From assembly GCA_005805505.1 (NCBI GenBank), contig SYMJ01000010.1:1-40881 (forward strand): a stretch of DNA of 40,881 nt. Direction: 5' to 3'. The notes under the pieces are model-generated. The model had not been told where the DNA came from. It ran no database searches and saw nothing but the letters and a program-made list of their open reading frames with translations. A program made the translations under genes and the position numbers. This document shows, piece by piece, positions 21,667 through 28,739 of this stretch; the stretch's first letter is position 1; every line of letters begins with the position of its first letter. Source of the DNA: Verrucomicrobiales bacterium. Lineage in GTDB: Bacteria > Verrucomicrobiota > Verrucomicrobiia > Limisphaerales > UBA9464.

Positions 21667-24600
21667 ATGAAACAGTTCCTTAGATCCCTCCTGCCGATGT
21701 GGGCCTTGTTGGCGCTCACTGTCGGACTTCACGCCGCTCCGCTCCGCGTCTTCATCCGCGGCGGCGTCAAAACCCACGGCCCCAACCAGCACGATCATCC
21801 GCGGTTCCTGGGTGAATGGGCCAAGCTCCTCACCGAGCGAGGAATCACCGCCAGCGGCGCTATGGAATTTCCGACGGCCGCCCAGTTGGAGGCGACCGAT
21901 GTGCTGGTGATTTACGCGGCCGACGGCATGAAAATCATCGGCGACGAACGCGCACGCTTCGAGCACTTCCTGTCCCGCGGTGGTGGCGTGGTGGTGCTTC
22001 ACGACGGCGTGGTCAGCGGTGATCAGCACGAGTGGTGCAAGAAGATCATCGGTGGCGCCTGGCGCTGGGATGGCGAGAAGAAGACTCAGTGGCACGAGGG
22101 CAATGTCGGGGTCTATTTCGTCAATCCCGAGCATCCGATTGTGAAGGGCGTGTCCAACTTCGACTGGAAGGACGAGGTCTACAACCGCCTCGACATGGCC
22201 GAGGACGTCAACGTGTTGGCCCAGAGTTTTGTCGATGTCTTCAACATCTGGCCCCAGCTGTGGACTTATGAGAAGACCTTGCCCGAGGCCAAGGCACCTT
22301 ACCGGGCCTTTGTCAGCATCCCCGGTCACGAGTACGACTCGTTCAATACCCCCCATTACCGGGCCATTTTGCTGCGCGGCATCGCCTGGGCCGGTCAACG
22401 CGCCAACGCCGATGAGTTCTGCAAGCCCGAGGAATTGGCTTCGCTCAAGTACCCGGCCGGGGGGCCGAAGCCCGCCGCCGAGGCGCTCAAGACCTTCCAG
22501 ACCCATCCGGAGTTCAAGGTGTCCCTGACGGCCGACGAGAACGTGGCCGAGAAGATCATGTCTATGGACTGGGACGAGAAGGGTCGCCTGTGGGTGGTTG
22601 AGACGCCCGAGTACCCGGGAGGTCGCGACGTGAACAAGAACGACTTCAAGGCCTACTGGAACCGCGCCCAAGACCCCAAGACCTTCCCTGTTGGCGGCAA
22701 GCAACCTCGCAAGCCGCTCGACCGTATCTCCCTTCTGGAAGACACCAACGGCGATGGCGTGGCCGACAAGCGCACCCTTTTTGCTGACGGTCTGGAACTG
22801 CCCACCTCGCTGGTGTTCTGGAAAGACGGCGTCATCGTGGCTCAGGCTCCCGACATCTTGTGGATTCGGGACACCAATGGAGACGGTCGGGCGGACAAGG
22901 TCGAAACCCTCTATACCGGCTGGGGCACCTTCGACACCCACGCGGTCATTAGCAATTTCCGCTGGGGCATGGATGGCTGGATTTACGGATCGGTGGGCTA
23001 CACCCGTGGACGCGTGAAGTCTGGCGACGGATCCAAGGACTTCGGCGACATCGCCGCGGGTATTTACCGCTTCAAGCCCGATGGCTCCGCGGTCGAGCAA
23101 ATCGCCGCCGGGGGTTGCAATACTTGGGGCTGCGAGATCGCACCCGACAACGAAATCCTCTTCACGACGGCCACCTGCGGCGAGCCCATCTGCCACGTGG
23201 TGATCCCTGAGAAGATCTTGGCTCGCGGACAGGTGGGCGGCATGAAGTCGTTCTTCAATGTCATTGAGGAGAACAAGATTTACCCGGCCTTCGATGAGAA
23301 GCGCCAGCCGTACGTGCAAATCGACTGGGTGGGCGCTTGGACCGCAGCCGCGGGAGCGACAATTTATGACGGCGGCGCTTGGCCGGCCAAGTGGGCGGCC
23401 ACCGAGCGGTATTCGTTCTTCATGGGCGAGGCCACCCGCCAGCTCTTCCATCATGAGTTTCTGGATCCGAAGGGCGCGACCTACCAAGGCCGCAAAGAAG
23501 ACGGCCGCAAGCAGACCGAGTTCCTCGCCAGCACCGATTATTGGTTCCGACCCATCCACAGCCGCGCGGGCCCGGACGGGGCTATCTATCTGGTCGATCT
23601 CTACAATCAAATCGCCGTCCACAATGACACCCGGGGTCCGGGTCACGGCGCCCGCAATGCGGCTGCCCGCCCGGATCGGGATCACCACTTCACCCGCATT
23701 TGGCGCATCCAGCACAAGGATGCCAAGACGCTGCCGACCGCGAAGTTCGACCGCAACGACGCGGAGACCCTGGTCACCGCCCTGAATCATCCGAATGGTT
23801 GGGTTCGTTCCACGGCCAATCGCCTCCTGGTTGAGCAGCCCGCCGTGCTGAAATCGGCATTGCCCGGTCTGGGTCAGCTCATCGGCGACACTGCCGCCCC
23901 GGCTGAATCCCGCATCCAAGCCTTGTGGCTTTACCGCGTGGCCGCCTCCAACGGGCCCGTGCCCTGGGACGATGCGGCCGCCGCCTCGGTCATGAACGAT
24001 TCGTCCCCCTGGGTTCGCAAGAATGCCCTTCGGGTGGCTACCGAGTTGGTGGCCAACCCAGCCAATCTCCGCTCAAAAGATTCCGATCCGCTGAAGACCA
24101 CGGAAAAAGCCGTCATCGAGCGCTTGAGCGACCCCGATGGCCGCGTACGCATTAACGCCCTGATGGCCGCGGGTTCCTTGCCGGCGTCTCGTGCCTTGGC
24201 CAATGCCGTGGTGGCCGCTTGGCCCAACCTCAAGGATCGTTGGCTGGAGTCCGCCGCGGTCGGTGCCGCCGACAAGGATCCGCTGCTCTTCCTCGAGGCG
24301 GTCTTTGCTGCCCAAGATCCGGCGTTCGTCGTTGGATATGTGCCGCACCTGGCCCGGATGGTTGCCAATCGACGGGATGCCGCGCTGGCCGGACGCATGG
24401 TGCAATTGCTCGCGCGTCAACCGGCCGCCACCGATGGCCTTAAGGCGGCCGCCCTCGAAGCGTTGTCGGCCGCGCTCGACGCCCGCCTGCAGCCCGAACT
24501 CGATGCGGCCAATTTGGGCGCCTTGAAGTCGCTACTGGCTTCGGGTCGCACCGCTGGTTCGGTGTTGCCCTTGGTGGCCCGCTGGAAGGCGGCTTCGGCC

Positions 24601-26814
24601 TTGGCTGCCGAACTCAAGCCCGCCATTCAGGCCGCCTCGGCCCAGATCGGGGACGCCGCGTTGTCGGACGCCTCTCGCGGCCAGATCGCCGCCAATTTAA
24701 TTGGTGTCCGCAACATCGATTCGTCGGTCATCCCTGCTGTCGCTTCTCTAGTGACCCCGGCCGTGAGTCCGGCGCTCCAAAAGTCTCTCATCGAGGCCCT
24801 GGGTTCCGCCCCCGAAGGTGGGATGGCTCTGGTCCAACGGTTCGCCCAGTTGCCCACCGGTCAGTTGGAGACGGCTTTTGCTCAGGTACTCAAGCGGGCC
24901 GACTCATCCGCCGCCTTCATCGAGGCGCTCGCCGCTCACAAGATCGACGTGGTGCTGCTCGGACCTGCCCGCCTGCACCGTCTCCGCACCCACGGTGACG
25001 CCAAAATTGCGGCCCGCGCCACCCAGGTTATCGACGACCTGAAGGGGCCGGAGGCCAAGGAGAAGGACGCCCTCATCGCCAAGTTGCAGCCGGAAGTGGA
25101 GAAGCCGGGCGATGTGGCCAACGGCAAGAAGGTCTACACCGCCAACTGCGCCGGCTGCCACATTTACAAGGGTGAGGGCCGTAACTTGGCTCCCAACCTC
25201 AACGGCATGGGGGCCCACGGTGCGGCCGACTTGCTCATCCACATCGTGGACCCGAACCGCGTGGTCGAGCCGAACTTCATCAGCGTTAGCGTGGAGACCA
25301 AGTCGGGGGATCAGTTCGATGGCATCATCGAGCGTGAGAATGCCTCGGAAGTGGTCCTGCGCGACGCGACGTCCGACCACACCTTGCGTGTCTCCGACAT
25401 TGCCAACCGCAAGTCTACGGGGCGCTCGCTCATGCCCGAGGGCTTCGATGCCTTGGGCGCGGCCGCTCTGCGGGATTTGCTGGCCTACATGACCGTCGAT
25501 GACAATCGCTTCCGCATCATTGATTTGGGTGGGGCTTTCACGGCCAACAGCGGTCGTGGCCTCTACATCACGCCGGAGCAGGAAGACGACACCGTTACCT
25601 TCCGCAGCTACGGCCTCAAGCGCGTCGAAGACATTCCTTTCGACGTGATCAGCCCTGAGAAAGCCGTCGCCAACGTGGTCGTTCTCAAGGGGGGAGCGTC
25701 GGACTCCTGGTCGCGCAAGAGTCTGCCTAAGCGGGTCGAGGTGAAGGTGGGTGTGGCGGCCTCCAAGCTGCACATCCTGGGCGGCGTGGCGGGCTGGGGT
25801 TATCCCGCGGTGGGCGAGAAGGTCAATGCCCTGAAAATGACGGCCGTTTTTGAAGGCGGTGCGACGCAGGAGATCCTCCTGAAGAACGGCGTGGAAATCG
25901 CCGACTACCGCGGTCGTGCGGATGTGACGGGTTCCAAGGGGTTGCCGAGCTGGACCAAGGGGCCTGGCCAGATTCGTTGGCTGACCAAGAATATTACCAA
26001 GCCCGGTGTGATCCAGAAATTGGTGCTGGAGAGCTACGACAACGAAGTGGCGCCGACCCTCTTCGCCATCACAGCCGAGTTGGGCGCGCCGGCGGGACCT
26101 GAGCAGGCTCAGGTCAATCCGGTGGCCGCACCGCTGAAGTGGGGCAATGGGCTCAAGACACTGCTCATTGGCGGTGGTGCTTCGCACGACTACAACCGCT
26201 GGTTCAACCTAGCGGATGTGGCGATGCTCAATGACTCCGGGCACATTTCGGCCAACTACCGCGAGTCACAGGACGTGACCATCGAGGCTGTGAAGTCCGC
26301 GGACATCTTGCTCATCAGCGCCAACAAGGCCTTTCCCGATGCAGCGGTGCGCGAGGCCATCGCAGCCCATGCTGCGGCCGGCAAAGGTCTGGTTCTGCTG
26401 CACCCGGGCCTGTGGTACAACTGGGCCAACTGGCCTGCTTACAACCGGGAATTGGCCGGCGGCGGTTCCCGCGGCCATGACTCTTACGGGGAGTTTGAAG
26501 TCACCGTTTCCGGCGTGAAGCACCCCTTGCTTCAGGGTGTTCCGGAGCACTTCAAGCTCAGCGACGAGCTCTACTACTACGAGGCCGATCCGGCTGGAAC
26601 GCCCATCCAGGTGCTGGCCACCGCCCACTCTAAGCCCAAGAACAAGGACTTCCCGCAGGTCTTCGTGGTGAACCATCCCAAGGCCCGCATCGCCGGCATC
26701 ACGTTGGGTCACGACGCCATCGCTCACGGGCATATCGCCTATCAGCAGTTGCTCAAGAATGCGGTGCTGTGGACGGCTCACAAGGAGGCCTGGATCACGG
26801 CCAACGCGAAGTAA
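21667..26814 (+). CDS. Giant secreted ThuA-propeller-HEAT-cytochrome c-ThuA protein
   Basis: A 1715-residue exported protein; the ATG at 21667 (MKQFLRSLLPMWALLALTVG) starts a signal peptide. Domains: ThuA-like glutamine-amidotransferase-fold module (about 25-250, ending a VVVLHDGVVSG block), PVC-type soluble-dehydrogenase propeller (about 290-690, with DTNGDGVADK and DTNGDGRADK calcium-like loops), alanine-rich HEAT-like repeats (about 700-1130), a cytochrome c domain with C-A-G-C-H at about 1161-1165 and the IVDPNRVVEPNFISV block, a beta-rich module of unknown type (about 1280-1480), and a second ThuA-like module (about 1495-1715, KTLLIGGGASHDYNRW). ThuA domains are linked to trehalose and other sugar keto/oxidation pathways in other bacteria. 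A strong terminator follows. Substrate unknown. Confidence 0.9.
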   Translation: MKQFLRSLLPMWALLALTVGLHAAPLRVFIRGGVKTHGPNQHDHPRFLGEWAKLLTERGITASGAMEFPTAAQLEATDVLVIYAADGMKIIGDERARFEHFLSRGGGVVVLHDGVVSGDQHEWCKKIIGGAWRWDGEKKTQWHEGNVGVYFVNPEHPIVKGVSNFDWKDEVYNRLDMAEDVNVLAQSFVDVFNIWPQLWTYEKTLPEAKAPYRAFVSIPGHEYDSFNTPHYRAILLRGIAWAGQRANADEFCKPEELASLKYPAGGPKPAAEALKTFQTHPEFKVSLTADENVAEKIMSMDWDEKGRLWVVETPEYPGGRDVNKNDFKAYWNRAQDPKTFPVGGKQPRKPLDRISLLEDTNGDGVADKRTLFADGLELPTSLVFWKDGVIVAQAPDILWIRDTNGDGRADKVETLYTGWGTFDTHAVISNFRWGMDGWIYGSVGYTRGRVKSGDGSKDFGDIAAGIYRFKPDGSAVEQIAAGGCNTWGCEIAPDNEILFTTATCGEPICHVVIPEKILARGQVGGMKSFFNVIEENKIYPAFDEKRQPYVQIDWVGAWTAAAGATIYDGGAWPAKWAATERYSFFMGEATRQLFHHEFLDPKGATYQGRKEDGRKQTEFLASTDYWFRPIHSRAGPDGAIYLVDLYNQIAVHNDTRGPGHGARNAAARPDRDHHFTRIWRIQHKDAKTLPTAKFDRNDAETLVTALNHPNGWVRSTANRLLVEQPAVLKSALPGLGQLIGDTAAPAESRIQALWLYRVAASNGPVPWDDAAAASVMNDSSPWVRKNALRVATELVANPANLRSKDSDPLKTTEKAVIERLSDPDGRVRINALMAAGSLPASRALANAVVAAWPNLKDRWLESAAVGAADKDPLLFLEAVFAAQDPAFVVGYVPHLARMVANRRDAALAGRMVQLLARQPAATDGLKAAALEALSAALDARLQPELDAANLGALKSLLASGRTAGSVLPLVARWKAASALAAELKPAIQAASAQIGDAALSDASRGQIAANLIGVRNIDSSVIPAVASLVTPAVSPALQKSLIEALGSAPEGGMALVQRFAQLPTGQLETAFAQVLKRADSSAAFIEALAAHKIDVVLLGPARLHRLRTHGDAKIAARATQVIDDLKGPEAKEKDALIAKLQPEVEKPGDVANGKKVYTANCAGCHIYKGEGRNLAPNLNGMGAHGAADLLIHIVDPNRVVEPNFISVSVETKSGDQFDGIIERENASEVVLRDATSDHTLRVSDIANRKSTGRSLMPEGFDALGAAALRDLLAYMTVDDNRFRIIDLGGAFTANSGRGLYITPEQEDDTVTFRSYGLKRVEDIPFDVISPEKAVANVVVLKGGASDSWSRKSLPKRVEVKVGVAASKLHILGGVAGWGYPAVGEKVNALKMTAVFEGGATQEILLKNGVEIADYRGRADVTGSKGLPSWTKGPGQIRWLTKNITKPGVIQKLVLESYDNEVAPTLFAITAELGAPAGPEQAQVNPVAAPLKWGNGLKTLLIGGGASHDYNRWFNLADVAMLNDSGHISANYRESQDVTIEAVKSADILLISANKAFPDAAVREAIAAHAAAGKGLVLLHPGLWYNWANWPAYNRELAGGGSRGHDSYGEFEVTVSGVKHPLLQGVPEHFKLSDELYYYEADPAGTPIQVLATAHSKPKNKDFPQVFVVNHPKARIAGITLGHDAIAHGHIAYQQLLKNAVLWTAHKEAWITANAK

Positions 26815-26954: not shown

Positions 26955-28739
26955 ATGAGTCGTTTTCAAGATACTTGGCCCCGCTTCCGAAGCCGGTGCG
27001 CACTGGTCCTCATTGGGGGGCTGTTCACAGTCCTAGCCCGCGCTGTCAGCTTGGATTTGGTTTTTCGCCCTACCTGGGATGGTAAGCCTCTGGAAATCGA
27101 GGCGCTGCGCCATGAGACCGGGGCCGGCGAATTGCTGTCGGTGACCCGCCTGAGCGCTCTGTTATCGGGAGCCGCGCTGGAGACCGTCGACGGGAAGTGG
27201 GTGGAAGTGACTCCGGCCCATGCGTGGATCGACGTCGCGTCCGGTCGACTGCGTTGGACCTTGAATCCGGTTCCGCCGGGCCAATACCGGGCGCTGCGTT
27301 TTTGGATCGGGCCGGACCCGGTCGAGAACCACGCCGATCCGGCCAAACGGTTGCCCGACGATCCGTTATCGCCCGCTCTCAATGGCCTGCATTGGGACTG
27401 GCAGGGCGGGTACATCTTCATGGCGCTGGAGGGGCGCTATCGTTCGGGCACTGGTCCCATCGCCGGCTATTCGCTGCATGTCGCCCGGGATCCCCGACGC
27501 ACCCGGATATCGCTCGCGGTACCGTTGGATCTAACGCGGAACGGGGTCCTCCGGTTGGACTGGGATTTGGCATCCTTGTTCCGCTTGCCTCGGCCAATTT
27601 CACTGGCGCGGGATGGGCAATCCACCCATTCGCGCGAACAGGATTCATTGGCCGATGCGTTGGGCCGAAACCTACCCTTGTCGTTTCGCGCAGGAGAATT
27701 GCTCGATAGCCCAGGGGTCGTCGAGAAGGCGACGGTTCCTCCCGTCGTTCCCAAAGACCTGCCCCCAAAATACACGCCCCATCGATTCGCGATGGCGGGA
27801 ACCTTTCCCATCCCGCCGCTCCCTCGGGACAATCCGTTGATCGAGGAACGAATCGCGTTGGGACGCCGGTTGTTTCAAGAGACGGCCTTGTCGGCCGATC
27901 GATCCATTGCCTGCGCCTCCTGCCACGCGGCGGCCTCGGGGTTTTCGGATTCGCGTCGTTTTAGTCCGGGCGTTCAGGGCCAACTGGGAACTCGGCAGTC
28001 CATGGCCTTGGTTAATTTGGCCTGGAAGCGGGAGTTTTTCTGGGACGGTCGAGCCCGATCGTTGCGGGAGCAGGTATTGATGCCTATTCAGGATCCGACC
28101 GAGATGGCCGAGACCTTGGAGTCGGTGGTCAGCAAACTATCGGGAATGCCCGAGTATCCGGCATTGTTCGAAAAAGCGTTTGGGACTCCGCGCATCGACG
28201 CCGAACGCATCGCGTTGGCGTTGGAACAGTTTGTCCTGACCCTCACCGGGTTCCGGTCCCAGTTTGATTTGTCGATTCAAGGAAAGGCCACCCTCAGCGA
28301 TCTGGAACGCCGGGGGTTGGAACTCTTCATGACCGAGAACGAACCGCGTATGGGGCAGCGTGGGGCCGACTGCTTCCACTGCCATGGCGGGATGCTCTTC
28401 ACCGATCACCAATTTCACGACAATGGATTGGACCTCGAACCCAGCGATCCAGGTAGGGCCGGCGTCACCAAGCGTAATTCCGATCGGGGCAAGTTCGTGA
28501 CGCCGACCTTGCGCAACATTGCGCGAACCGCTCCCTACATGCATGACGGCCGCTTCCAGACGCTGGAGGAGGTGGTGCGCCATTACTCGGAGGGTGTTCA
28601 GGCGAGCCCCAACCTGGACCCCAACTTGGCCAAACACACCGCCGGGGGTCTTCACCTCAGCCCTGACGATCAATCTGCCCTGGTGGCTTTCCTGAAAACC
28701 TTGAGTGAACCGACTGTTCAGCCGTCGGCTCCGCAGTAA
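26955..28739 (+). CDS. MbnP-like copper-binding domain fused to an MbnH/CCP-type diheme peroxidase
   Basis: A 594-residue exported protein; ATG at 26955 (MSRFQDTWPRFRSRCALVLIGG) gives a signal peptide. Residues about 32-170 resemble MbnP: VSLDLVFRPTWDGKPLEIE, the long PLSPALNGLHWDWQGGYIF block with H146/W147/W149, and YSLHVA. Residues about 285-585 are a diheme peroxidase of the MauG/CcpA/MbnH type with CASCH at 320-324, CFHCH at 473-477 and DGRFQTLEEVVRHYSEG near the end. In methanotrophs MbnH is a diheme enzyme that converts a tryptophan of MbnP to kynurenine for copper binding; there they are separate genes. A fused enzyme and substrate is therefore plausible here but inferred. Confidence 0.85.
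   Translation: MSRFQDTWPRFRSRCALVLIGGLFTVLARAVSLDLVFRPTWDGKPLEIEALRHETGAGELLSVTRLSALLSGAALETVDGKWVEVTPAHAWIDVASGRLRWTLNPVPPGQYRALRFWIGPDPVENHADPAKRLPDDPLSPALNGLHWDWQGGYIFMALEGRYRSGTGPIAGYSLHVARDPRRTRISLAVPLDLTRNGVLRLDWDLASLFRLPRPISLARDGQSTHSREQDSLADALGRNLPLSFRAGELLDSPGVVEKATVPPVVPKDLPPKYTPHRFAMAGTFPIPPLPRDNPLIEERIALGRRLFQETALSADRSIACASCHAAASGFSDSRRFSPGVQGQLGTRQSMALVNLAWKREFFWDGRARSLREQVLMPIQDPTEMAETLESVVSKLSGMPEYPALFEKAFGTPRIDAERIALALEQFVLTLTGFRSQFDLSIQGKATLSDLERRGLELFMTENEPRMGQRGADCFHCHGGMLFTDHQFHDNGLDLEPSDPGRAGVTKRNSDRGKFVTPTLRNIARTAPYMHDGRFQTLEEVVRHYSEGVQASPNLDPNLAKHTAGGLHLSPDDQSALVAFLKTLSEPTVQPSAPQ

Follow-up and report, generated by a model that had tools for sequence, protein, structure and literature searches.

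An MbnP-like domain joined in one chain to a MauG/MbnH-type diheme domain: a candidate self-maturing copper protein in Verrucomicrobiota

Proteins of the MbnP domain family are the known substrate of the diheme enzyme MbnH. In Manesis et al. 2021 (PNAS), the first Trp of the MbnP WxW block is reportedly converted to kynurenine, and the Cu(I) site is said to consist of a His, a Met, and a solvent molecule, with the kynurenine close by. This pair (PDB entries 7l6g and 6e1c; NCBIfam models TIGR04052 and TIGR04039) is encoded by two genes, and PMC3621798 already describes such pairs far beyond methanobactin producers, adding that the MbnP sequence shows no marked resemblance to that of MopE or CorA. 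According to PMC3423442 and PMC3912023, these latter proteins, i.e., MopE/SACCP and CorA/CorB of methanotrophs, have a copper site made of kynurenine and two His and are co-transcribed with a diheme peroxidase gene, while MauG acts on a separate protein, methylamine dehydrogenase (PMC3912023).

The window, the 40,881-nucleotide stretch analysed here, comes from contig SYMJ01000010.1 of a Verrucomicrobiales bacterium, and its open frame at 26955-28739 (+ strand; 594 aa plus stop in the ORF reading) encodes a chain in which a likely signal peptide is followed by two domains recognised by Pfam profiles, MbnP and the diheme CCP_MauG. The sequence-only reading had placed an MbnP-like domain with the block HWDWQGGY and a diheme peroxidase with two CxxCH sites in one exported polypeptide, and the frame is indeed open across both. 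The fusion is like the MbnP/MbnH pair in its MbnP fold, its WxW block, and its Tyr-bearing, MauG-like diheme enzyme, but it holds in one chain the two partners that the pair keeps in two genes. In MopE/CorA, too, the genes are separate, and the motif is Trp-x-His instead of the HWxW of the fusion; likewise, the MbnP family protein and the cytochrome-c peroxidase of Deinococcus (NZ_OV024759.1, AP021851.1) are encoded separately, unlike the fusion. The features of the gene are as follows.

26955..28739, + strand: whole fused gene (594 aa), comprising signal peptide, MbnP domain, linker, and MauG/MbnH-like diheme domain
26955..27044, + strand: predicted Sec signal peptide, residues 1-30, cleavage near ARA (sequence reading; helix 7-27 in the model)
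27048..27614, + strand: MbnP domain, PF20243 (Pfam profile; fold match to 7l6g)
27390..27413, + strand: HWDWQGGY block, residues 146-153 (alignments)
27393-27395, + strand: W147, predicted kynurenine precursor, within HWDWQGGY (alignments)
27477..27479, + strand: H175, predicted to bind copper; it matches the His kept in all MbnPs compared (alignments)
27621..27632, + strand: STHS motif containing H225, at the position of the classical MbnP motif GCMS, His replacing Met (alignments)
27705..27803, + strand: variable linker, residues 251-283 (lower model confidence at about 251-260)
27804..28724, + strand: diheme domain, MauG/MbnH-like (Pfam profile; fold search)
27912..27926, + strand: first heme motif CASCH, residues 320-324 (sequence)
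28041..28103, + strand: W363, Q373, P377, and E383, spaced as MauG W93, Q103, P107, and E113 (residue comparison)
28371..28385, + strand: second heme motif CFHCH, residues 473-477 (sequence)
28584..28586, + strand: Y544, aligned with the MauG heme ligand Tyr294 (alignment)

Residues 1-30 likely form a Sec signal peptide, so that the protein would be exported. A template-free model of the whole protein has a mean pLDDT of 87.5 and a pTM of 0.84. In the genome of the window, profile searches return a single match to MbnP and two to CCP_MauG, the fused gene itself being one of those two.

The sequence-only reading named an N-terminal domain unrelated to MbnP as one outcome that would undo it, and this possibility is ruled out by two kinds of evidence. 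The PF20243 profile matches residues 32-220 with 87.2 bits against a cut-off of 27 (E 1.7e-24), and a template-free model of residues 29-261 alone (pLDDT 89.5), used as query in a fold search, finds the six chains of 7l6g, the MbnP of Methylosinus trichosporium, as its only PDB matches at E <= 0.001. Because no other structure falls below that threshold (best 7l6g match E 1.5e-8, TM-score by query 0.60-0.68; following PDB entry E 0.034), the domain is assigned to MbnP by fold. Searches of the PDB by sequence are less telling: the single-sequence search with the domain returned no MbnP, just unrelated weak matches, and the profile search matched 7l6g weakly (E 0.013). The family and fold assignments stand, but the domain reaches 22.5 bits with the strict NCBIfam model TIGR04052, below its equivalog cut-off of 140, as does the split MbnP protein of D. 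radiodurans with 85.2 bits.

The C-terminal half belongs to the CCP_MauG superfamily and to its MauG/MbnH type, having two CxxCH motifs and a Tyr at the position of MauG Tyr294. The best stretch of the PF03150 (CCP_MauG) match covers residues 298-445 (176.9 bits, domain E 5e-52), the best PDB match of the full-protein model is MbnH 6e1c (E 1.9e-21), with peroxidase and MauG chains ranking lower, and Y544 aligns with MauG residue 294, the Tyr heme ligand, as counted along the printed chain. MauG and the fusion share five diheme-site residues (W, Q, P, E, and Tyr); W93, Q103, P107, and E113 are named in PMC6405878, the last in its reference list. With TIGR04039, the strict MbnH model, the diheme half scores 214.4 bits, below the cut-off of 362.85, whereas the MbnH of M. 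parvus scores 493.7 bits, so that the fusion misses both strict cut-offs of the pair. In a tree of 26 diheme domains, which includes 11 fused and six MbnH sequences, the fused domains form one group (support 100/97) and the MbnH domains another (100/99), with MauG apart from both. The Deinococcus diheme genes group weakly with MbnH rather than with the fusion (88/81), and the fused group is joined by two Photobacterium peroxidases (92/93); neither value reaches the program's mark for firm support. The domain had been called MbnH-type, and this holds for its Tyr ligand and closest structure, but not for its ancestry within the 26-domain tree: it sits in a clade of its own within the CCP_MauG superfamily, so that simple capture of an MbnH does not account for the enzyme half.

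The same tree touches on an annotation matter. Five diheme genes that adjoin MbnP genes (L108:4615-5775, L109:4545-5816, L113:3696-4880, L114:3516-4685, and L115:3610-4761) are publicly annotated as "methanobactin export MATE transporter MbnM". The L108 gene, the only one of the five so scored, is MbnH at 493.7 bits, and all five share a tree group with a Pseudoalteromonas gene labelled MbnH; the MbnM labels therefore look wrong.

Conservation was read from 25 sequences, the window's and 24 others, found by the family profile with no motif filter. Invariant in all 25 are H146, W147, E159, H175, H225, S226, both heme motifs, W363, Q373, and E383, while W149, the second Trp of WxW, occurs in 24 and P377 in 22; position 544 is Tyr in the 24 sequences that reach it. 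The sole sequence with a broken WxW block (L021, HWDPQQGY) retains W147 and the three His, and its keeping of the first Trp fits the report that this is the residue oxidised. A second and larger set derives from genome_contigs, where relatives are encoded at 319 places: the best-scoring 80 were examined, and the 72 not cut by a contig end make, with the window, a table of 73 sequences, the eight cut loci being left out. The search pattern itself required L145, H146, W147, and W149, so their invariance in that table follows from it, and the 25-sequence profile set is the one to be trusted for these residues. Loci L017, L021, L022, and L026 were left out of alignment A1.

For the putative copper site, the comparison was extended to classical MbnPs. 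H175 is the only His invariant over the fused, D. radiodurans, and classical proteins (12 of 12). The Met of the C-terminal CMS/CMG motif is, as judged by eye, the only one common to the six classical MbnPs, and conservation across these six sequences makes it probably the Met ligand of MbnP. This GCMS motif is absent from the fused proteins, which have THS or SHS at the place by ungapped match: STHSREGDP of a relative matches the classical GCMSGLDDP, and the window reads STHSREQDS. An invariant His, H225, thus stands in place of the GCMS Met, which predicts a His/His/kynurenine site as in MopE/CorA. The alignments suggest such a site for the fused proteins, with the Met-to-H225 change being new here. 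To our knowledge, a Cu(I) site of this composition is known only from the MopE/CorA proteins. The Deinococcus MbnPs resemble the fusion in having a His near the STHS position (QVHFGP/QVHGGP, on a shorter loop), placed by eye, since the MAFFT alignment handled D. radiodurans poorly in this region and the profile alignment puts the His 2-3 columns off. Two other candidate ligands were set aside: His126 (ENHADP) is present in classical MbnPs too, but in only 11 of the 25 fused sequences, and the Met of GMAW is Leu in Trichormus, whereas the CMS/CMG Met is kept in six of six.

Taken together, both domains reside in a single conserved polypeptide, with an MbnP fold in the first and the residue set of the MauG/MbnH type in the second, and we consider it fairly probable that this polypeptide is an exported copper protein carrying its own maturation enzyme. 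By analogy with the characterised relatives, from which the use of H2O2 and the copper role are both taken, H2O2 would drive the diheme domain to a bis-Fe(IV) state, and this domain would oxidise W147 of the MbnP domain to kynurenine, either in the same chain or in a second copy. The kynurenine would then bind Cu(I) together with H175 and H225, and perhaps H146 as well. With each enzyme bound to a single substrate, the diheme part probably remains of use once the oxidation is done and would keep a later role, e.g., setting the redox state of the copper. Tryptophan oxidation and copper binding by the fused protein are what we infer along these lines.

The alternative that survives best, although we regard it as unlikely, is that the diheme half acts as an ordinary H2O2 peroxidase while the MbnP half does no more than bind copper or anchor the enzyme, with no kynurenine being made. 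The bCCP peroxidases are close in sequence and fold, and PMC6405878 reports that BthA Y463H, in which the Tyr ligand is changed, keeps its peroxidase activity. However, both the Tyr at the MauG position and the first Trp of the WxW block are kept in every fused sequence that could be compared at these positions. Moreover, the fusion partner is the very domain family that serves as the known substrate of MbnH.

The genes around the fusion bring in a further protein. Directly upstream of the fused gene, on the same strand, 40 of 73 loci with at least 600 nt of upstream DNA have a gene for a long-insert YHYH protein (PF14240), such as L038:2343-3932 and L044:2316-3938; without the near clade of the window, the share is 40 of 65. 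Among 387 genomes, YHYH is present in 22 of the 22 with MbnP versus 26 of the 365 without (Fisher p 6.6e-23, without correction for kinship), and, over 85 YHYH matches, it lies within 6 kb of 16 of the 26 MbnP places, in 12 of these upstream on the same strand. The window and its eight near relatives with upstream DNA (L028-L035) have no adjacent YHYH gene; the genome of the window has three YHYH genes, all on other contigs. A sequence search found no solved relative of YHYH and one literature search found no tested function for it. These associations make the YHYH protein likely a partner in the same metal-handling pathway.

The YHYH protein, or some other protein, could instead be the main substrate of the diheme domain in place of the fused MbnP domain, for which the adjacency and co-occurrence just given would speak, as would a conserved Trp and His in the YHYH partner (12 sequences). 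We hold this to be quite improbable: the window and L028-L035 keep the fusion with no YHYH gene beside it, and the site predicted for YHYH in PMC7824862, a Zn site of three His and one Asp (with a hydrolase predicted in phages), needs no Trp oxidation. The reading in which the fused protein oxidises its own Trp to kynurenine, and so makes its own His/His/kynurenine Cu(I) site, can be widened to include the long YHYH protein as a new copper-handling component in Verrucomicrobiota; in this full form we offer it tentatively, as a possibility with somewhat less than even prospects.

The remaining neighbours are mixed. In the window, neither adjoining gene is a copper gene: upstream lies a ThuA/PVC-type heme protein (21670-26814; 1714 aa, with two ThuA stretches, DUF7133, HEAT-like repeats, and a CxxCH domain), kept in L028-L035 with a relative in L065, and downstream a PQQ-type propeller protein, kept in L028-L031 and L036, with L068 and L104 each having a relative of it. 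Elsewhere, 24 of 36 non-YHYH upstream neighbours and 49 of 67 downstream ones, called by a simple longest-frame script, were scanned. CusA/CzcA efflux genes lie directly upstream in two of the 24 (L050 and L097), and an RND adaptor resembling CusB/CzcB occurs at L048, while the 49 downstream neighbours gave no copper family among the 25 families listed of 46. Eight loci have a gene of the GSDH (glucose/sorbosone dehydrogenase) type directly downstream, e.g., L080:2323-4884, and some of them are titled Prosthecobacter or Verrucomicrobiaceae. Among plasmid records, the MbnP domain has only two matches at E <= 1, both in Deinococcus, and both have a diheme gene and a gene for copper resistance in their vicinity, the latter being CopC and CopD in D. 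radiodurans; the diheme gene of this species has the top bit score (187) among the 25 listed of 296 plasmid matches to the protein. These plasmid matches and the efflux genes of L050 and L097 favour the copper reading, and our confidence is tempered by the few loci with metal genes, by the strict MbnP and MbnH cut-offs that the fusion misses, and by the patchy occurrence of the family: PF20243 is found in 22 of the 387 Verrucomicrobiota genomes, 21 of them in the class of the window.

In these genomes the 27 PF20243 matches amount to 26 places, as L017 and L026 are one place, and 24 of the 26 are open frames that hold the MbnP match and two heme motifs. The other two look, from their sequences, like broken copies of the fused gene: in genome G108 (L017/L026) it has frame breaks inside both domains, and in G121 (L022/L120; L120:5731-9546) transposase-domain frames separate the MbnP piece from the diheme end. 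A survey of fused versus split pairs had been proposed with the original observation, and none of the 26 places is a split pair. Outside the phylum the survey covered plasmid records: 296 of them match the protein, with no match covering 80% of its length, and in the eight inspected records with an MbnP gene a separate diheme gene adjoins it or, in D. grandis, follows two other genes. Among the best 80 of the 319 relatives, all 72 uncut loci hold the MbnP match and both heme motifs in one frame, and 79 of the 80 carry taxon titles that we take to belong to Verrucomicrobiota, the title of the other one (L061) giving no more than "bacterium".

Both domains are under purifying selection, with Ka/Ks of 0.08-0.15 against five close relatives (81-92% identity in the MbnP domain). 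A sixth and more distant relative, L037, gives 0.217 for MbnP with Ks saturated for the diheme part, and the linker (31-33 codons), whose boundary was our choice for this computation, is too noisy for use. A chance read-through, frameshift, or assembly artefact joining two genes, for which no support was found beyond an assembly of 247 contigs that is 79.6% complete, is thus vanishingly improbable, since the 24 open phylum loci and the 72 uncut ones come fused, the latter from assemblies other than that of the window, one of them the complete genome CP011265.1 (L055), and since selection acts on both domains.

A search limited to an open-access library found no description of the fusion. Manesis et al. 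2021 (PNAS) are said to have surveyed gene neighbourhoods, and that survey may mention it. The sequence-only reading had also presented a copper function outside methanobactin systems as a novelty, which it is not, because the pair was already known far beyond methanobactin producers; what is new here is the invariant H225 replacing the GCMS Met and the link to the YHYH gene.

In our view, the locus represents a genuine, conserved form of the MbnP/MbnH pair that occurs patchily across its phylum; it comes with a predicted exchange of copper ligand and a gene partner that had not been suspected. With enzyme and substrate in one chain, it offers a clean system for the chemistry from tryptophan to kynurenine, in which the recognition between partners need not be rebuilt, and the predicted change in the ligand set is open to tests by single substitutions. 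The YHYH family gains a likely partner and, if the reading is true, kynurenine copper sites would reach part of another phylum.
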